From IMG/VR virus record IMGVR_UViG_3300047560_000787, positions 1 to 22,483 of that record: a DNA stretch of 22,483 nt, one strand, 5' to 3'. Made by a program: the position numbers and the translations under genes. The notes under the pieces were generated by a model, which had not been told where the DNA came from, searched no databases, and was given only the letters and a program-made list of their open reading frames with translations. The stretch's first letter is position 1. Every line of letters starts with the position of its first letter. Shown one piece after another: positions 3,421 to 19,622 of the stretch. Origin of the DNA: a virus.

Positions 3421-4032
3421 ATGTCATTTGAACTTCTTCCTTTATTTCCATCTGCTCTTTATTCTTCTAGACTTGATAGAAATATCACCGACGAAGAGTA
3501 TGCATATGTGAAGGAGCAGGCTCAAGAGGTATCTAAAAACTATTTTAATTACACCAGTTGTAATAAAAATGTGTTAGACGATGCGCCGATGAAATCAATA
3601 AAAAACTTCATCGAGAAGCACGTAGATACATATATGGAAAATGTGATCTGTCCTAAAAAGGATGTGAAGTTCTATATTACTCAGTCTTGGCTTAACTATA
3701 CAAGAGAAGGTGGTTCTCATCATGAGCATACACACCCTAACAGTATAATCTCTGGTGTGTTTTATTTTTCTTGTAACTCTAAAGTAGATAGCATCGTCTT
3801 CAGCGATAAGACACATAAGACTATCTCAATAGAGTCAAAAGACGGAAATCTATACAATTCGACTTCCTTCGTAGTTCCAGTAGATCCTGGAATGTTACTA
3901 CTATTTCCTTCAAATCTTTTTCATAAAGTAGAAACTTTGACAGAAAAGCATGACAGGATAAGTCTAGCTTTTAATACCTTTGTCAAGGGTGATCTTGGTG
4001 AAGAGAAGGAATCTACTTACTTAAAGTTATAA
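3421..4032 (+). CDS. Putative 2OG-Fe(II) oxygenase
   Basis: A 203-residue protein of the phage 2-oxoglutarate/Fe(II) dioxygenase group. A His-rich metal site HHEHTHPN (100-107) is followed by a jelly-roll strand GVFYF. The distal part has PGMLLLFPSNLFHKV (H168) and DRISLAFNTF, whose R179 would bind the 2OG carboxylate, so all three ligand regions are present. The family hydroxylates proteins or nucleic acids; the substrate here is unknown. Genes like it are common in T4-like phages of marine and soil bacteria. GGAG (3411-3414) is 6 nt before ATG 3421. It lies between tRNA-Ser and tRNA-Trp and is more AT-rich than its neighbours. Confidence 0.87.
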   Translation: MSFELLPLFPSALYSSRLDRNITDEEYAYVKEQAQEVSKNYFNYTSCNKNVLDDAPMKSIKNFIEKHVDTYMENVICPKKDVKFYITQSWLNYTREGGSHHEHTHPNSIISGVFYFSCNSKVDSIVFSDKTHKTISIESKDGNLYNSTSFVVPVDPGMLLLFPSNLFHKVETLTEKHDRISLAFNTFVKGDLGEEKESTYLKL

Positions 4033-4181: not shown

Positions 4182-5927
4182 ATGAGAAAGATATTGAGCG
4201 CTGTCCTAGCGCTGTTCATTACGTCTGCAGTCCAGGCTCAGACTCTACCAGCTGGCTACATAGGTACCGTTACCAGCAACACGCCAAACACTTGGCAGAC
4301 TTACACTTATACTTTCACTCCAACACAGACCGGTGCAAACTACATCGGCTTCGCGTTTCGTCAAGATCCAGCTTTCTGGACTTTCGATAACGTACGTCTG
4401 ACTGTATCTGGTTCTAGCACTAATCTTCTTACGAACGGCGGATTCAACACCGGCGGTTCTTTCAACGTAACTACAAGCAACGGTCCTTCGAGTATACAGG
4501 CTCCAACTAACTGGGGTGTGTGGTACCAGAACGGAACTTATCCAGCAGCTGCTGGTACTTGGACCGACATCGGCGGTACACAGGGCGGCGTCTGGTACGA
4601 CGGCGCAGTAGGAACATTTGACGGCATCTATCAGGGTGTAGTGCTTCAAGCTGGTACCACTTACACTATTACTTTCGATGTGTTAGGTAATCATACATCT
4701 AACGGTGGTTCTGTACAGCTTGGCATCTACGGTGGACCATGCGATAATGCTTCGATAGCAGCTTCGCAGTGTACTATCCCATCGTCTTCAGGATTCACTA
4801 CTCTAGCTACTCCTGAACAGGGTGCAGCTGCTGGTGGTCCTCCTACACCTACTATCGTGAGTACTGCTTCTGCTACTGCACTTGTAGCTACTACCACTAC
4901 TTTCGGAGCTTCGTCGACTACTACTCAGGTCGTAGACGTTAGCAACAACAATAGAGTAAGGTTCACTGTAACTAGAACTAGGACTCCGATAACTTCGACT
5001 CCTTGGACTACGACAGTCGTCACTACTCCTAGAATAACGCAGACATGGAGCGACGGATCGACTACTACTATCGATGATCCGAACAATCCATCTACTACGA
5101 CTACTACGAACGGCATCATAGTCACTACTGGTACTGCTACACAGCAGACTCAGACGGCTGCATCTAATACTCTTAAAGATCAGCTGTCTATCAACACTCT
5201 GAACCCGTTCTTAGTAGATCCTCTTTCTCTGAAAGACGGCGTATGGTCTGCACCAGTGTTTGGTTATCACAGAGCTGGTGGTTCCGTTCGTGCGACTGGT
5301 ATAACTCTTGGTGTTCAGGGTTCTGACAACAAGACTACTATCGGTGGTGCGTTCAGGTATCAGGAAGCAAACGCTCATAGCTACTTAAACGCTGAATCAC
5401 AGGCGTTTCAGTATCACGGCGTTGCCTATATACTGCAGAAGTTAGAAGATGTTTGGGTCAAGGGTCTGTTCGGTATCGGTAACTCCAGTTATACGACTAC
5501 TACATCGATCCCAACCTTTTCTCTGTCTAATCAGAACAAAGTCAACCAAAGAAACTACTACGCTGACTTGACTCTCTACACTCCGAACGCGTTCGGAGGT
5601 TTTAGACCGTTGGTCGGCGTTCTAATCAACGGCAGCCAGATAGTTTCTCAACATGAAGTCGGTACTCCGCTTCTCTCTACGTTACCAGGAACTGGTACCC
5701 AGACTTACTGGATGCCGTACGTTGGTACTAGATACGAAGTTACTGACAACATTTCTTTAGAGACTAGGTTAACACATAATAAGGACTATGGTAATATAGT
5801 ACAAAATCGAGTATCGATCGATTCTGAGATATACGACAACGTGTTCTTGGAAGGTAAGGTCGGGTTCGACAAGGGCAGTAACTACACTGCTGGAGTCGGC
5901 ACGGTCGGACTAAAGATCAAGTTCTGA
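4182..5927 (+). CDS. Secreted outer-membrane beta-barrel protein with Thr-rich stalk
   Basis: A 581-residue protein. A Sec signal peptide (residues 1-19, SAVQA) is followed by about 200 residues with two similar beta-sandwich-like stretches (YTFTPTQTG..IGFAFR; TYTITFDVLGN..VQLGIYGG), reminiscent of carbohydrate-binding or adhesion modules. Residues about 215-335 are Thr/Ser-rich and low in complexity. The last 240 residues show alternating beta strands and end GVGTVGLKIKF, the terminal aromatic signature of outer-membrane barrels such as autotransporters. It resembles a bacterial surface protein more than a virion protein. I infer insertion into the host outer membrane, perhaps altering receptors. 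A TATAAATA element and a leader hairpin precede it. Confidence 0.68.
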   Translation: MRKILSAVLALFITSAVQAQTLPAGYIGTVTSNTPNTWQTYTYTFTPTQTGANYIGFAFRQDPAFWTFDNVRLTVSGSSTNLLTNGGFNTGGSFNVTTSNGPSSIQAPTNWGVWYQNGTYPAAAGTWTDIGGTQGGVWYDGAVGTFDGIYQGVVLQAGTTYTITFDVLGNHTSNGGSVQLGIYGGPCDNASIAASQCTIPSSSGFTTLATPEQGAAAGGPPTPTIVSTASATALVATTTTFGASSTTTQVVDVSNNNRVRFTVTRTRTPITSTPWTTTVVTTPRITQTWSDGSTTTIDDPNNPSTTTTTNGIIVTTGTATQQTQTAASNTLKDQLSINTLNPFLVDPLSLKDGVWSAPVFGYHRAGGSVRATGITLGVQGSDNKTTIGGAFRYQEANAHSYLNAESQAFQYHGVAYILQKLEDVWVKGLFGIGNSSYTTTTSIPTFSLSNQNKVNQRNYYADLTLYTPNAFGGFRPLVGVLINGSQIVSQHEVGTPLLSTLPGTGTQTYWMPYVGTRYEVTDNISLETRLTHNKDYGNIVQNRVSIDSEIYDNVFLEGKVGFDKGSNYTAGVGTVGLKIKF

Positions 5928-5932
5928 GTTTT

Positions 5933-5997
5933 AGGAACCCTACAGCATTAATGCCGCGAGGCACTTTTTATGGGAAAAAGCAAAGTGGTTCCTGTTG
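5933..5997 (+). ncRNA. GNNG-tailed RNA family, unit 1
   Basis: AGGAACC (5933-5939) pairs perfectly with GGTTCCT (5987-5993). The 5' strand is followed by the box CTACAGCA (5940-5947) and the 3' strand by GTTG (5994-5997). The 47-nt insert forms TGCC-GCGA-GGCA (5952-5963) and CTTTTT/AAAAAG (5964-5980), then GCAAAGT before the 3' strand. It starts 5 nt after the stop codon of the barrel gene and ends exactly 5 nt before unit 2. Confidence 0.75.
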
Positions 5998-6002
5998 TTT
6001 TT

Positions 6003-6125
6003 AGGCTATCTACAGCACATTTTTTGCTTATGACGCCGTAGGTCGTGGGTTCGAGTCCCACCTCAGAGGTCATAGATCGATGAGTAGCTCAGTTGGATAG
6101 AGCGACGAAAAAGTATAGCCTGTTG
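6003..6125 (+). ncRNA. GNNG-tailed RNA family, unit 2, with permuted tRNA module (Y-RNA-like)
   Basis: AGGCTAT (6003-6009) pairs with ATAGCCT (6115-6121), box CTACAGCA (6010-6017) and tail GTTG (6122-6125). A second 7-bp helix (6019-6025 with 6108-6114) stacks on it. The insert is a tRNA in circularly permuted order: variable AGGTC, T-arm GTGGG-TTCGAGT-CCCAC (6045-6061), then CTCA/TGAG and GGTC/GATC joined across an ATA loop (6062-6084, a closed acceptor stem), TA, then D-arm GCTC-AGTTGGATA-GAGC (6087-6103). ACG (6105-6107) pairs with CGT (6037-6039). The closing helix thus replaces the anticodon arm, as I recall for bacterial YrlA Y RNAs that bind Ro60. Confidence 0.78.
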
Positions 6126-6140
6126 TATATATAGAATTGA

Positions 6141-6214
6141 GACCCTAGAGCATGACGGTAATGCAAGCGTCTCTAAAACGTATGATATGGGTTCGAGTCC
6201 CGTTAGGGTCACCA
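6141..6214 (+). tRNA. Amber-suppressor tRNA, anticodon CTA
   Basis: Acceptor GACCCTA/TAGGGTC is perfect, D-arm GCAT-GACGGTA-ATGC, anticodon loop CTCTAAA (6171-6177) with CTA at 6173-6175 pairing with UAG, T-arm ATGGG-TTCGAGT-CCCGT, A73 and encoded CCA. The outermost anticodon-stem pair is A-A and the next is G-U. The anticodon loop differs from tRNA-Trp(CCA) at 4042 by one base, and its D-arm resembles tRNA-Cys. The charged amino acid cannot be told from sequence. Confidence 0.87.
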
Positions 6215-6231
6215 ATAGTTGGAGTATTAAA

Positions 6232-6270
6232 ATGAAAGCATTTTTCCTCTAGGTTTTTAGACCGCCTTAA
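6232..6270 (+). other. Mini-ORF with in-frame amber codon
   Basis: TTGGAG (6219-6224) precedes ATG 6232. The frame reads MKAFFL, then TAG (6250-6252), then VFRPP and TAA (6268-6270). Six codons are translated without suppression and twelve with it. It starts 18 nt after the amber-suppressor tRNA and ends just before a promoter. It may be a leader peptide or minigene, or chance. Confidence 0.35.
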
Positions 6271-6278
6271 TTTTCCTA

Positions 6279-6307
6279 TTGACACGTTATATCTAATACT
6301 TTATTAT
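6279..6307 (+). promoter_or_regulatory. Sigma-70-type promoter
   Basis: TTGACA (6279-6284), a 17-nt spacer, then TATTAT (6302-6307), 18 nt before ATG 6326. Confidence 0.78.
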
Positions 6308-6325
6308 TAAACAATAGGAAACAAA

Positions 6326-6796
6326 ATGTCTATAGAACTCAAAATCAAATCAAAGCATCTAGCTCTCGAACCGGCTATCATTCGCAAAGAAGAGCAGAAG
6401 CTAAACAAACAAATCAAACACTATAAGATGCATCATCAGATTGCTAGCGATGATGATACTTGGTCATATTCTAAGAATCATCCCGATCTTTATAGTCTGT
6501 GTTTGAAACGTGGCAGTTTGATATGCCATCGAAAGTGGAATGTTCGTAATGAAGCACGTGCAACATATCTTGCGCGCGCCTATATCAAGGGTGTTCCATA
6601 TAGAGTAGTGGAATCTAACTGTAAAGAAAAACTTTGGGTTCCAGTTATGGAAAGTTTAGTTCGTATGGTCATGAAGTATGGTAAGACATATTACAGACCA
6701 GACTACGAAAAAACTCCAACAGGGGTAAGGAATCTACTTAAGACGGCCGAATGTAAAGCCGAAGAAGACGTCCTTGCTTGGTTGAATAAAGAATAA
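6326..6796 (+). CDS. Hypothetical phage protein
   Basis: A 156-residue basic, soluble protein; no recognised family. N-terminal residues 1-40 are strongly helical and Lys-rich. The middle part has YLARAYIKGVPYRVVES and may be a compact helical domain. The basic character fits nucleic-acid contact, but there is no diagnostic motif. It has its own promoter at 6279 and an AGGAAAC ribosome site. It separates the two blocks of structured RNA; unit 3 of the RNA family begins 6 nt after its TAA. Confidence 0.75.
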   Translation: MSIELKIKSKHLALEPAIIRKEEQKLNKQIKHYKMHHQIASDDDTWSYSKNHPDLYSLCLKRGSLICHRKWNVRNEARATYLARAYIKGVPYRVVESNCKEKLWVPVMESLVRMVMKYGKTYYRPDYEKTPTGVRNLLKTAECKAEEDVLAWLNKE

Positions 6797-6802
6797 AGTT
6801 TT

Positions 6803-6864
6803 AGGATTGTTACAGCATACATGCACTTGTTTTGTAAACAAACCTGCAAAGGGCAATCCTGTAG
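6803..6864 (+). ncRNA. GNNG-tailed RNA family, unit 3
   Basis: AGGATTG (6803-6809) pairs perfectly with CAATCCT (6854-6860), box TTACAGCA (6810-6817) and tail GTAG (6861-6864). The 44-nt insert has GCAT-AC-ATGC, a TTGTTT/AAACAA stem and GCAAAGGG before the 3' strand. Unit 4 starts exactly 5 nt later. An alternative pairing GTAGTTT (6861-6867) with AAACTAC (6886-6892) would link units 3 and 4. Confidence 0.75.
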
Positions 6865-6869
6865 TTTCT

Positions 6870-6988
6870 AGATTGGCTTCCGCAAAAACTACTTACTTGG
6901 TTCGATTCCAAGGCTCCCCGCCATTATGGGGAGCTGGGCTGGCGCCCCCGTAGAGGTCTTCCTCTATGGTTTCCCCACCAATCTGTTG
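6870..6988 (+). ncRNA. GNNG-tailed RNA family, unit 4, with permuted tRNA-like module
   Basis: AGATTGG (6870-6876) pairs with CCAATCT (6978-6984), box CTTCCGCA (6877-6884) and tail GTTG (6985-6988). Inside, a canonical T-arm CTTGG-TTCGATT-CCAAG (6896-6912) is followed by acceptor strand GCTCCCC, G, CCA, a short linker, then GGGGAGC (6928-6934). The acceptor is therefore closed by a loop and the 3' half precedes the 5' half. Next come a D-like arm GGGC-TGGC-GCCC (6936-6947) and a 9-bp hairpin (6948-6969). A competing fold pairs GGGGA with TCCCC (6972-6976) before a second CCA. The tail overlaps the next promoter. Confidence 0.7.
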
Positions 6989-7014
6989 ACATTTTTAACG
7001 TATAGTAGTACTAT
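6986..7014 (+). promoter_or_regulatory. Sigma-70-type promoter for the RNA array and Ro-like gene
   Basis: TTGACA (6986-6991), a 17-nt spacer, then TACTAT (7009-7014). The start TTGACATTTTT matches the promoter at 2156. Transcription from about 7021 would run through units 5-8 into the Ro-like gene, with no terminator between. Confidence 0.78.
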
Positions 7015-7033
7015 ATCAGAGTTAAAGAGTTTA

Positions 7034-7088
7034 GGGATCAGTTCAGCAACTAACTGCTTCGCATATAGCAACCAAGATGATCCCGCTG
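7034..7088 (+). ncRNA. GNNG-tailed RNA family, unit 5
   Basis: GGGATCA (7034-7040) pairs perfectly with TGATCCC (7078-7084), box GTTCAGCA (7041-7048) and tail GCTG (7085-7088). It is the shortest insert (37 nt), with GCAACCAAGA before the 3' strand. TTCAGC (7042-7047) could also pair with GCTGAA (7085-7090). Unit 6 starts 5 nt later. Confidence 0.7.
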
Positions 7089-7093
7089 AATTA

Positions 7094-7182
7094 AGAATGC
7101 TTTCTGCATGTAACATGGTTGATCAACGATATGCGCTCGCGCATTTCCGTCTGGAGGTTCAATTCCTCCGAGCATTCTGTAG
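7094..7182 (+). ncRNA. GNNG-tailed RNA family, unit 6, with T-arm
   Basis: AGAATGC (7094-7100) pairs perfectly with GCATTCT (7172-7178), extended to nine pairs including one G-U (7094-7102 with 7170-7178). Box TTTCTGCA (7101-7108) and tail GTAG (7179-7182). A tRNA T-arm GGAGG-TTCAATT-CCTCC (7153-7169) sits next to the closing helix as in a normal tRNA. The anticodon position is instead a tight hairpin ATGCG-CTCG-CGCAT, so it is tRNA-like but cannot decode. Confidence 0.68.
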
Positions 7183-7187
7183 AATCT

Positions 7188-7354
7188 AGGTTAGATACAG
7201 CAAAAAGCTGCATTTGAAATCGCGATAACAGCGAAGGCGATAGAACGGAGGCATCTGTCTATCGGGTGGTCGAGGAAACTCGTAACAACCTGACTTTTTG
7301 TAGTCACGTACTACAAGTGAGTGGTGTACCACAATGATGCGAGCTAACCTGTCG
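7188..7354 (+). ncRNA. GNNG-tailed RNA family, unit 7 (largest)
   Basis: AGGTTAG (7188-7194) pairs perfectly with CTAACCT (7344-7350), box ATACAGCA (7195-7202) and tail GTCG (7351-7354). The 149-nt insert is highly structured: GCAT/ATGC (7210-7213 with 7337-7340), CGATAGA/TCTATCG (7238-7264), CGAG-GAAA-CTCG (7271-7282, GNRA loop), TTGTAGT/ACTACAA (7298-7316) and GTGG/CCAC (7321-7332). An outer AATCT/AGATT pairing is also possible. Confidence 0.73.
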
Positions 7355-7359
7355 ATTTA

Positions 7360-7423
7360 AGATTCAGTTCCGCAACCAAATGAAAAGCAATTTCGTAACT
7401 TGCTCAACAAGTTGAATCTGTAG
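7360..7423 (+). ncRNA. GNNG-tailed RNA family, unit 8, in the 5' UTR of the Ro-like gene
   Basis: AGATTCA (7360-7366) pairs perfectly with TGAATCT (7413-7419), box GTTCCGCA (7367-7374) and tail GTAG (7420-7423). The insert contains AACTTG/CAAGTT (7397-7413). It ends 15 nt before the Ro-like start codon; the ribosome site AAAGGAAAAG lies in between, so this unit could also act as a cis-regulator. Confidence 0.72.
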
Positions 7424-7438
7424 AAAAGGAAAAGTGAA

Positions 7439-8872
7439 ATGACTACTTTTGTAAATGCCGTCGTAAACCAGTCTGCCCGTACTGAGAACGGGATGAAGGC
7501 ACGTCAGAACACAGCCAATGCGTTGACTGACTTGTTCTTCAAGATCGGCGCTATGCGCGGTCAGAACGTGATCCCTGTATGGACTGCTGCTCGTGTTCAA
7601 GATCCTGTTATGGCGGGTCGTATCGCTCTCTGGGCGCGCGACGTTCGCGGCGGTGCCGGTGAGCGTAAGATCTTCCGCGACATCCTCGTAGATCTTGCTA
7701 ACACTGATCAGATCCGGGCAGCTGAATTGATGCGTAAGGTTCCTGAGCTCGGTCGTTGGGACGACTTGCTTGTACTCGTAGGTACTCCTATGGAAGAGCA
7801 AGCGTTCTATATGATTCGTCTCGCTCTCGAAGACAACATTGGTCTCTGTGCTAAGTGGATGCCTCGTAAGGGTGAAGTAGCTGCGAAGCTGCGTGCACAC
7901 CTTGGCTGGACTCCTAAGTTCTACCGCAAGCGTCTAGTCGAGTTGACTAAGGTCGTCGAGACTCAGATGTGTGCTGGTAAGTGGGACGAGATCAACTTCA
8001 ATCATGTTCCCTCTGTAGCTTCTGCTCGTTACAAGAAGGCGTTCGCTCGTCATACTGAGAAGTACAAGGAGTGGGCTGCTGCTCTTGTGTCTAAGGATCC
8101 TGAAGTCGCTAAGACTGTAAAGGTCAACGCCGGTGCGGTGTATCCCTACGACGTGCTGAAGGGCCAGATCGGCCACTATCGTATGTCCTACACTCAGGAT
8201 AACCTAAACCACATCTTGGCTCAGTGGGAAGCTCTGCCTAACTACGTCGGTGACGCGAACGTCCTTCCTATCGTCGACGTGTCTGGGTCTATGACCTGTG
8301 CTGCTGGTGGACATCAGTCAAAGTCTGGTGTAACTTGCCTTGACGTATCTGTGTCTCTTGGTCTGTATCTTGCAGACAAGAACAAGGGTAAGTTCAAGGA
8401 TACGTTCCTGACTTTCTCTGCTAAGCCTCAACTTCTGCACTTGAAGGGTAACGTCCTCGACAAGATCAAGCAGATGATTGAGTCTAAGTGGGAGATGAAC
8501 ACTAACCTGCATGCAGCGTTCGACAAGATCCTGCAGGTAGCTATCGAAGGCAATGTTCCTCAGGAAGAGATGCCTGGAATGCTGCTGATCCTCTCGGATA
8601 TGCAGTTCGATCAGTGTGCTTCATACGACGACTCCGCTATGCAGATGATCGCTCGTAAGTATGCTGAGGCTGGGTACAACGTACCAAACATCGTTTTCTG
8701 GAACATCAACGCGCACGACAACGTGCCCGCTAAGTTCAATGAGAAGGGTGTAGCCCTCGTGTCTGGCTTCTCACCAGCGATCGTCAAGGGTGTCCTCGCC
8801 GCTGATCTTGATGACTTCACACCAGAAGCCATCATGCTGAAGACGATCATGTCAGAGCGCTACGACTACTGA
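7439..8872 (+). CDS. Ro60-like TROVE/vWA protein (DUF2828-like)
   Basis: A 477-residue protein with the architecture of Ro60 orthologs: an all-helical HEAT-like N-terminal domain (about 20-265; ALWARDVRGGAGER, LGRWDDLLVL, and CAKWMPRKG) and a C-terminal von Willebrand A domain. The vWA MIDAS is complete: DVSGS (280-284), T355 and D387 in LSDMQF. The N-terminal motifs fit Pfam DUF2828, which I regard as TROVE-like; this relationship is from memory. Ro60 binds Y RNAs and misfolded RNAs and in bacteria works with PNPase. Six structured RNA units directly upstream, two of the family being tRNA-permuted, support an RNA partner. ATG 7439 follows AAAGGAAAAG. It is GC-richer and codon-smoother than its flanks, suggesting high expression. 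Confidence 0.82.
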   Translation: MTTFVNAVVNQSARTENGMKARQNTANALTDLFFKIGAMRGQNVIPVWTAARVQDPVMAGRIALWARDVRGGAGERKIFRDILVDLANTDQIRAAELMRKVPELGRWDDLLVLVGTPMEEQAFYMIRLALEDNIGLCAKWMPRKGEVAAKLRAHLGWTPKFYRKRLVELTKVVETQMCAGKWDEINFNHVPSVASARYKKAFARHTEKYKEWAAALVSKDPEVAKTVKVNAGAVYPYDVLKGQIGHYRMSYTQDNLNHILAQWEALPNYVGDANVLPIVDVSGSMTCAAGGHQSKSGVTCLDVSVSLGLYLADKNKGKFKDTFLTFSAKPQLLHLKGNVLDKIKQMIESKWEMNTNLHAAFDKILQVAIEGNVPQEEMPGMLLILSDMQFDQCASYDDSAMQMIARKYAEAGYNVPNIVFWNINAHDNVPAKFNEKGVALVSGFSPAIVKGVLAADLDDFTPEAIMLKTIMSERYDY

Positions 8873-9747: not shown

Positions 9748-10284
9748 ATGCAAAAGACTATCGTATCGGCGCTCGCAGTTCTTGCGTCGACAGCAGTGGC
9801 TCTCGCCTCTGACCTGCCAAGCAAGACGGCACCGTCGGCACCAGCGTTTGCTGCTAGTTTTAGCCAGTACTACGTCGGTGGCAACGTCGGTGGTGATCTA
9901 GACACTGCTCGCGCATACACGATTGGTGCTGTTGCTGGCTGGAACGTCCTTCCGTTCCTTGCAGTAGAGGGTACATATGACCTTTCCCGAGCCGATAATA
10001 AGGTTCATGGAAACTGGAACTACGGCAACACTGTCGCAGTTAACGTTGTACCACAGTACAAGATTCCTGGTTCTGATCTCACCGTGTATGCACTCGGTGG
10101 TGTCGGCTACAAGTGGAATACTCAGGCTGCAGACTACTCAGTCTACAACGTCGGCGGTGGCGTCAAGTACGACCTCACCAGCAAGATCGAGGTCGACACT
10201 CGTTATCGTCGGATCGCTCCTATCGATTCGAAGAACGGTAACTCAGAAGACCGCATCACTGCAGGCGTGAACTACAAGTTCTGA
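9748..10284 (+). CDS. Opacity-type outer-membrane porin
   Basis: A 178-residue protein. A signal peptide (residues 1-20, ALA cleavage) leaves a mature N-terminus SDLPSKTAPSAP, closely like the (A)ADLPSRKAP start of Rhizobiales opacity and Omp25-like porins. The rest alternates beta strands of an 8-stranded barrel (YYVGGNVGG, IGAVAGWNVLPFLAVEGTYD, VYALGGVGYKW, VGGGVKYDLTSKIEVDTRYR) and ends GVNYKF, with the terminal Phe recognised by BamA. A phage gene like this is probably acquired from a host. Possible roles are receptor masking, superinfection exclusion or envelope support. AAGGAG precedes ATG 9748, and a terminator follows. Confidence 0.85.
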   Translation: MQKTIVSALAVLASTAVALASDLPSKTAPSAPAFAASFSQYYVGGNVGGDLDTARAYTIGAVAGWNVLPFLAVEGTYDLSRADNKVHGNWNYGNTVAVNVVPQYKIPGSDLTVYALGGVGYKWNTQAADYSVYNVGGGVKYDLTSKIEVDTRYRRIAPIDSKNGNSEDRITAGVNYKF

Positions 10285-18927: not shown

Positions 18928-19422
18928 ATGACTAACTGGCCTACCTATAAGTTCGATCACAGCTTTGCAGAACTCGATAAGTTCTCTAAGTTCTTCGTTG
19001 GAGCAGACAAGTTCGCTCAGAAGATGAATGAGACCGTGGAACATATTGCCAAGACTGCAGCTTCCTCATATCCTCCATTCAATCTCAAGAAGACAGATGA
19101 CAACGTCTATGTTCTCGAGATGGCTGTGGCTGGCTTCGGCAAGCAAGACATCGAACTCACTCTCGAAGCTAATAAGCTGATCGTCAAGGGCAACTCTTCA
19201 GTCGATTCAGACGAAACATCAGACTACCTGCATAAGGGTATCGCTGACCGCGCGTTCACTCGTACGTTCTCTCTCGCAGACAACGTCGAGATCAACAACG
19301 CCGCTATGATGAACGGCATCCTGAAGATCTGGCTCGAGCACATCATTCCAGAAGACAAGAAGCCTAAGAAGATCGACATCGTTGATACTGAGGAAACTGC
19401 GTCTAGGAAGAAGATCAAGTAA
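18928..19422 (+). CDS. hsp20: Small heat-shock protein, Hsp20/IbpA type
   Basis: A 164-residue protein with an alpha-crystallin domain of about 95 residues (YPPFNLKKTDDNVYVLEMAVAGFGKQDIEL, FTRTFSLADNV, and MNGILKIWLEHIIPEDKKPKKIDI). The A-x-x-x-n-G-v-L-like MMNGILKI motif and the C-terminal I-x-I (IDI) for oligomer assembly are visible. ATP-independent holdase. T4-like phages, notably cyanophages, often carry hsp20, thought to protect proteins during scaffold or capsid assembly. AAGGAG precedes ATG 18928. Confidence 0.93.
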   Translation: MTNWPTYKFDHSFAELDKFSKFFVGADKFAQKMNETVEHIAKTAASSYPPFNLKKTDDNVYVLEMAVAGFGKQDIELTLEANKLIVKGNSSVDSDETSDYLHKGIADRAFTRTFSLADNVEINNAAMMNGILKIWLEHIIPEDKKPKKIDIVDTEETASRKKIK

Positions 19423-19424
19423 TT

Positions 19425-19622
19425 ATGAACTTCTGGACAGGCGTAATGTTTTGGCTCGATGCACTTCGTGAGAGCATGAGAGCTTCAAGAGCAGCTAGAG
19501 AACTATACTCTTTATCGGACCGTGAACTTAATGATCTTGGTATTTCGAGATTCGACATACCGAGGGTGATCTTTGAAACGTTCGATAAGCAACCACAGAG
19601 AATACCTTCTAGAAGCTGGTAA
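19425..19622 (+). CDS. DUF1127 protein
   Basis: A 65-residue protein with the DUF1127 signature RELYSLSDRELNDLGISR (about 26-43). DUF1127 is abundant in alphaproteobacteria; in Rhizobiales small Arg-rich members influence RNA turnover and phosphate or stress responses. Its presence in a phage suggests host acquisition and supports an alphaproteobacterial host. It starts 2 nt after hsp20 and ends at a terminator. Confidence 0.85.
   Translation: MNFWTGVMFWLDALRESMRASRAARELYSLSDRELNDLGISRFDIPRVIFETFDKQPQRIPSRSW

Follow-up and report, generated by a model that had tools for sequence, protein, structure and literature searches.

A tandem array of putative Y-type RNAs upstream of a Ro60-type gene in an uncultured virus, with a core shared among distant phages

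A 22,483-nucleotide genome fragment of an uncultured virus (IMG/VR record IMGVR_UViG_3300047560_000787; this whole 22.5-kb stretch is referred to as the window) encodes a family B DNA polymerase, 20 tRNAs called by ARAGORN, and an array of eight RNA-like units that share a 7-bp closing helix and short constant boxes and stand directly before a gene for a Ro60-type protein. What are these units, and what connects them with the protein encoded next to them? We propose, with a probability of roughly 0.8, that they are phage Y-type RNAs, partners of the Ro60 encoded right after them, laid out as a tandem modular array, and as such larger and more modular than the Y RNAs already known.

The units were delimited with a script that requires a perfect 7-bp helix whose 5′ strand is directly followed by the box NT[A/T]CNGCA and whose 3′ strand is directly followed by GNNG. 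The script returned exactly the eight units listed in a preliminary description of the window (Table 1), found none on the minus strand, and picked up a single unit in total when run on 200 shuffled copies of the entire window. The spacing rule noted earlier is exact, with a 4-nt tail followed by 5 nt between units 1 and 2, 3 and 4, 5 and 6, 6 and 7, and 7 and 8, and the insert sizes given there, 37 to 149 nt, hold when the box is counted in. The array begins 5 nt past the stop codon of the upstream open reading frame and runs on the strand of the Ro60 gene, ending 15 nt upstream of its start codon, a place where many relatives have a corresponding unit. Close relatives of unit 3 occur in five other loci (L003, L004, L005, L008, and L012).

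Table 1. Coordinates of the array, its surroundings, and the capped-core tRNA-like genes of other loci (L numbers)
Feature	Position	Strand	Helix, 5′/3′ strand	Box	Insert (nt)	Tail	Remark
Unit 1	5933..5997	+	5933-5939/5987-5993 (AGGAACC/GGTTCCT)	5940-5947	39	5994-5997	Two short hairpins
Unit 2	6003..6125	+	6003-6009/6115-6121 (AGGCTAT/ATAGCCT)	6010-6017	97	6122-6125	
tRNA, anticodon CTA	6141..6214	+					Amber-suppressor type, ARAGORN label Pyl; between units 2 and 3, outside any unit
Unit 3	6803..6864	+	6803-6809/6854-6860 (AGGATTG/CAATCCT)	6810-6817	36	6861-6864	
Unit 4	6870..6988	+	6870-6876/6978-6984 (AGATTGG/CCAATCT)	6877-6884	93	6985-6988	T-arm 6896-6912, then three more hairpins
Promoter-like TTGACA-17-TACTAT	6986..7014	+					Directly after unit 4
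Unit 5	7034..7088	+	7034-7040/7078-7084 (GGGATCA/TGATCCC)	7041-7048	29	7085-7088	
Unit 6	7094..7182	+	7094-7100/7172-7178 (AGAATGC/GCATTCT)	7101-7108	63	7179-7182	T-arm 7153-7169 at end of insert
Unit 7	7188..7354	+	7188-7194/7344-7350 (AGGTTAG/CTAACCT)	7195-7202	141	7351-7354	Several hairpins, no T-arm
Unit 8	7360..7423	+	7360-7366/7413-7419 (AGATTCA/TGAATCT)	7367-7374	38	7420-7423	
Ro60/TROVE-type ring protein gene (by predicted fold)	7439..8872	+					477 aa; Pfam DUF2828 + DUF7788; PHROG 850 "RNA-binding protein"
Capped-core tRNA-like genes, L084	7895-8015, 8025-8137						
Capped-core tRNA-like genes, L082	7891-8005, 8012-8125						
Capped-core tRNA-like genes, L081	~7581-7692, 7711-7824						
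Capped-core tRNA-like genes, L106	671-784, 3715-3827						
Capped-core tRNA-like genes, L264	1176, 1417	-					
Capped-core tRNA-like gene, L191	8501	-					
Capped-core tRNA-like gene, L203	539	-					

The product of the gene that follows the array is, by its predicted fold, a Ro60-type ring protein and is the presumed protein partner of the units. It carries a MIDAS DVSGS motif. A sequence search of the PDB with the Ro60 profile gave no match to solved structures, and the assignment rests on an AlphaFold2 model built from 22 relatives (mean pLDDT, 76). The best three Foldseek matches of this model among 350,542 PDB chains were a TROVE domain, Rsr of D. radiodurans, and human Ro60. The top ten VIA-align matches, the Ro60 of Thermus phage phiLo included, were all Ro60/TROVE proteins (Z of 16 to 10, with ∼380 to 400 residues aligned), followed by single VWA domains.

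Several lines of evidence tie the units to Ro60. First, among 79 viral loci with Ro60 relatives, 62 have an intact start preceded by ≥600 nt of sequence, and units lie within 2.5 kb upstream in 47 of these 62, including all 39 in which Ro60 identity is ≥60%; several of the remaining loci carry units downstream. Second, 159 units around Ro60 are on the strand of the gene and none is on the opposite strand, a comparison with a built-in null. Third, searches that used the RNA only lead back to the protein: a two-unit junction pattern matched 15 contig stretches, of which 13 have Ro60 and the two others are also without a true unit. A looser RNA-only pattern found 80 loci, made up of 50 records with a valid helix (including L177, whose unit holds an ambiguous base) and 30 without, and Ro60 is encoded in 44 of the former versus 1 of the latter (Fisher P = 8e-15). 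A similar pattern had 37 matches in 84,980 cellular genomes, none with helix support at the match and none beside Ro60; this is the level expected by chance, and arrays in cellular genomes were rejected.

The core common to the units comprises the 7-bp closing helix, NTNCNGCA after the 5′ strand, and G-T-T-(G/A/T) after the 3′ strand. The GNNG tail of the preliminary description is present in all eight units of the window but is a local reading of this wider pattern: tails among 371 distinct units include GTTG (147), GTTA (120), and GTTT (43). Consensus sequences are [AG]TTTT for the 5′ flank and GTTGA[GA]T for the tail plus spacer, and only 16 of the 371 units contain GNCGAAN0-1G, the Ro-site consensus motif. 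Pairing of the box (CNGC) with the tail (GTTG) as a pseudoknot was considered but rejected, because changes in the variable base of the box are not matched by changes in the tail (its C meets T instead of G).

Compensatory change had been claimed at all seven pairs of the helix. The helix does covary, but every unit of the window has G-C at pair 2, and pair 5 is mostly T-A; across the 371 distinct units, pairs 3 to 7 show several pair types and pair 2 is nearly invariant in a scan that itself fixed helix base 2 as G. Since the units of an array are paralogues, a real test of covariation must run across loci, and since choosing units by their helix is circular, 5′ halves were picked by 5′ sequence alone in all loci then gathered. 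Their own exact 7-base reverse complement, counted if it lay within 260 nt downstream and was followed by GT or GC, was found for 118 of 129 distinct 5′ halves, which are not independent because the sequences are related. With swapped helices as the control, 2.2% had a complement (maximum, 5.8% in 200 deals). The failures among the 129 include one G-U pair (L091) and one different tail (L005, GATG). This cross-locus result gives the conserved structured RNA family proposed in the preliminary description far better support than it had before. There are 79 distinct helices among the 371 units, and helices differ in 139 of 142 pairs within arrays; the 3 identical pairs, compared with 4.5% between arrays, are no more than suggestive of an avoidance of identical helices inside arrays, which is not clearly beyond that among unrelated arrays.

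The inserts fall into short (<55 nt; 139 units) and long (232 units) classes. Short units have almost no tRNA element, whereas a tRNA T-arm is found in 123 of the 232 long inserts, compared with 1.9 in shuffles. A T-arm followed by a D-arm, the permuted order of the YrlA RNAs, occurs in 49 of the 371 units and in no shuffle, and three units have D, anticodon, and T arms in the normal order without an acceptor stem. In the window, T-arms are present in units 2, 4, and 6 and absent from the other five, and no tRNA was called in any of the eight by ARAGORN or by Rfam at its cutoff. Unit 2 carries a circularly permuted tRNA-like insert, with a T-arm (∼6045 to 6061), a capped acceptor-like stem, and a D-arm (∼6086 to 6107), and the Rfam YrlA model (RF02553) matches positions 6023 to 6132 with 40.1 bits (E = 6e-7); the other seven units of the window have no YrlA match. 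With this match and a Ro60/TROVE gene directly downstream of the array, the earlier statement that no described family has such features fails. No Rfam model accounts for the whole region: group I introns are not matched there, and ROOL, GOLLD, and other large phage RNAs gave no match within positions 5850 to 7500 even at E values of up to 10.

Known Y RNAs have a basal stem of paired ends held by Rsr and a tRNA-like effector domain able to reach PNPase (PMC8394870). Like YrlA and other bacterial Y RNAs (Salmonella, Deinococcus, mycobacterial, and mycobacteriophage), the units stand beside a Ro60/Rsr gene and have ends that pair in a basal stem, and some share the circularly permuted module of T-arm, capped acceptor stem, and D-arm. 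Unlike YrlA, the window has eight units in tandem, with 5-nt spacers and a NTNCNGCA/GTT core in common; the inserts of most units are not tRNA-like, and Rfam scores are below the gathering cutoff. The vertebrate Ro60 site likewise includes a 7-bp helix, which lies in the lower stem of the Y RNA and adjoins unpaired conserved bases (PMC4726728), but the sequences are unrelated and the units are found in phages. A parallel in arrangement is Listeria phage CKA15, in which very abundant noncoding RNAs, suggested by the authors to be possible Y RNAs, are encoded no more than 2 kb before an Rsr homologue and in the same direction (PMC12282133). In the related Listeria phage LMSP-25 (L103), unlike in the window, no units with the shared core are seen around Ro60, where there is instead a ROOL-like match (3470 to 4021; 88.5 bits, just under the cutoff). 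A drum RNA above the cutoff (983 to 1081) also lies upstream of the LMSP-25 Ro60, and a tRNA splicing ligase, presumably of the RtcB type judging from its name, and an RNA ligase are annotated downstream.

In principle, Y RNAs with tRNA-like domains have reportedly been described near phage Ro60 genes (Chen et al. 2014, RNA 20:1715). In the literature covered, which was without the primary bacterial Y RNA papers, we found no description of an eight-unit tandem array, a core common to distant phages, many non-tRNA inserts, or the capped-core tRNA-like genes considered below. Sequence divergence has made Y RNAs hard to recognize in all but a few bacteria. Hundreds of phage units are marked by a short core that can be searched for (7-bp end helix, NTNCNGCA, and GTT); with it, Y RNAs of phages can be found, and recognition by Ro60 can be tested on short RNAs.

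The core recurs beside phage Ro60 genes in viruses of at least four host groups. Among isolates, it is found beside the more distant Ro60 genes of Synechococcus phage BUCT-ZZ01 (three units), Cronobacter phage S13, Citrobacter phage Ci1, Felixounavirus wV8 (four units), Aeromonas phage APT65 (five units), Campylobacter phage PC5, and Enterococcus phage EF5. KVP40 has two candidate units with long inserts 3 to 6 kb before its Ro60. Mycobacteriophage LeBron, as read by eye, has the same arrangement beside Ro60, with three variants in which the box is CAGCA and the helix is shorter, and the Rfam YrlA model also matches just downstream of its Ro60. Scans of three complete phage genomes gave 14 units, most of them close to Ro60, against a chance expectation of 0.1 to 0.4 per genome: all four units of wV8 (88 kb) lie ≤1.1 kb after Ro60 inside a tRNA cluster, four of six in APT65 are just upstream of Ro60, and two of four in BUCT-ZZ01 are adjacent to it. 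In BUCT-ZZ01 (L081), a permuted tmRNA match above the cutoff (Rfam RF04321; 111.9 bits; 1780 to 2076), ∼4 kb upstream of Ro60, represents a predicted phage-encoded two-piece tmRNA.

How might such an array work? The constant module, a 7-bp helix joining the ends with NTNCNGCA on the 5′ side and GTT on the 3′ side, may be the Ro60 dock, like the basal stem of known Y RNAs, and the variable insert may be the effector, whether hairpin, permuted tRNA mimic, or another fold. No intrinsic terminator was found between the units or between the units and the Ro60 gene, and this, together with fixed short spacers and their AU-rich sequence, suggests one precursor cut between units. Transcription would then cover the array as a whole, in many cases together with the Ro60 gene, and the transcript would be cut in the spacers. 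Different helices in neighboring units could ensure that, within a single long transcript, every 5′ strand pairs with the 3′ strand of its own unit, and so prevent mispairing. Several different adaptors could load onto one kind of Ro60 ring and, during infection, gate the ring cavity, provide a tether for tRNA-handling enzymes or for nucleases, PNPase among them, or act as decoys for anticodon nucleases. The array suggests one ring protein supplied with many exchangeable RNA adaptors during infection.

Several observations weigh against identifying the units as Y-type RNAs. Six unit-bearing records show no Ro60 (IMG/VR contigs of 8.6 to 52 kb, which may be fragments), and some units lie several kilobases away from the gene. 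A T-arm is absent from 247 of the 371 units, and the inserts therefore give no ground for assigning most units to YrlA. The score of unit 2 is below the YrlA gathering cutoff of 69 bits, and 11 of 14 control genomes likewise match the model at low scores; at such scores the model is therefore not specific, and it was rejected as a whole-genome detector. The bulged C and opposite 3-nt bulge of the vertebrate type are not evident in the units. Finally, whereas the anatomy of the units, its conservation, its linkage to Ro60, and the tRNA modules are shown here, Ro60 binding, processing, and function are inferred.

Four alternatives were considered. The main role of the tRNA-like units could be that of decoys, directed at anticodon nucleases or tRNA-modifying enzymes of the host and stored or stabilized by Ro60. 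The three units with D, anticodon, and T arms in normal order and no acceptor end, and the permuted tRNAs in others, would suit this role, and decoy action has been proposed for YrlA of Salmonella; nevertheless, YrlA itself was reported not to be cut (PMC7790460), most units have no anticodon arm, and 247 of the 371 have no T-arm. We regard decoys as the chief role as unlikely.

The units could instead act mainly in cis, with Ro60 binding its own mRNA leader to repress or stabilize it and the other units serving as spare sites or processing signals. Unit 8 ends at the ribosome-binding site, roughly half of the loci with upstream units have 13 to 24 nt between the end of the last unit and the Ro60 start, and no intrinsic terminator lies between the units and the gene. 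A leader, however, has no need of inserts with intact T- and D-arms, and units also occur downstream of Ro60 or several kilobases off, those of wV8 being within a tRNA cluster after the gene. A mainly cis-acting role is, in our judgment, improbable.

It is scarcely credible that the units are decayed or split genes of a tRNA cluster with the helix as an acceptor-stem relic. The helix has the 7 bp of an acceptor stem and the window has its 20 tRNAs, but GTT, not NCCA, follows the helix, nothing in a tRNA corresponds to the invariant box, and tRNA elements are almost absent from the 139 short units. Conservation of helix and box across phages already opposes decay, which would not preserve exact complementarity in 79 different helices. 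Recombination sites such as integron attC can practically be dismissed: the GTTGAGT of tail and spacer (consensus as above) fits the GTTRRRY core of attC, but attC needs the complementary RYYYAAC on the 5′ side, where the flank here is [AG]TTTT, and the inserts look noncoding and the scanned complete phages keep most units beside Ro60.

A second group of genes shows the same core in another guise. Long tRNA calls beside Ro60 in several phages hold the core turned inside out, in the order 3′ strand (NNNNNCT), loop GNNN, 5′ strand (AGNNNNN), and then NTNCNGCA. At least 12 such capped-core genes have a 7-bp acceptor stem, most with a good T-stem and an encoded CCA, and the core replaces the anticodon loop. 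They are found in S13, Ci1, BUCT-ZZ01, APT65, KVP40, and two metagenomic relatives of the present virus (L191 and L203), and none was found in the window. Those listed in Table 1 are ∼112 to 123 nt long, most with CCA, and are annotated, if at all, as tRNA-Ser, tRNA-OTHER, or tRNA-Pseudo. The capped core may be either a fixed arm or an intron.

We tentatively postulate, at somewhat less than even odds, one portable Ro60-docking core that is combined, in either of two circular permutations, with a large variety of RNA bodies. In the form found in tandem arrays, the core would provide the free ends, with the tRNA body inside and its acceptor stem capped; in the other, the acceptor ends would be free, often with an encoded CCA, and the GNNN-capped core would replace the anticodon loop. 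If this is true, modular tRNA-Y chimeras bring many cargoes to one ring protein and offer a direct clue to the origin of Y RNAs from tRNAs; capped-core genes, if confirmed, link the two through circular permutation. At L073 (2541) and L197 (11752), the capped core lies within a stem, CCCGAC...GTCGGG, followed by a T-run and resembling a terminator hairpin, a third context for the module.

Other features of the window were also noted. The promoter-like sequence after unit 4 could drive units 5 to 8 and Ro60, although the number of promoter-like sites in the array region is not above chance. With respect to the CTA-anticodon tRNA between units 2 and 3, the stop codons of sixteen likely genes of the window were checked; all are TAA or TGA and none is TAG. 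A protein with a NUMOD3 motif, often found in homing endonucleases, is encoded at the edge of the tRNA cluster (44 to 454). Three genes are host-like: one for a possible outer-membrane beta-barrel protein (9748 to 10284; weak NCBIfam match, below the cutoff), one for an Hsp20 protein (18928 to 19422), and one for a 65-aa protein of a PHROG family of unknown function (19425 to 19622), which resembles bacterial DUF1127.

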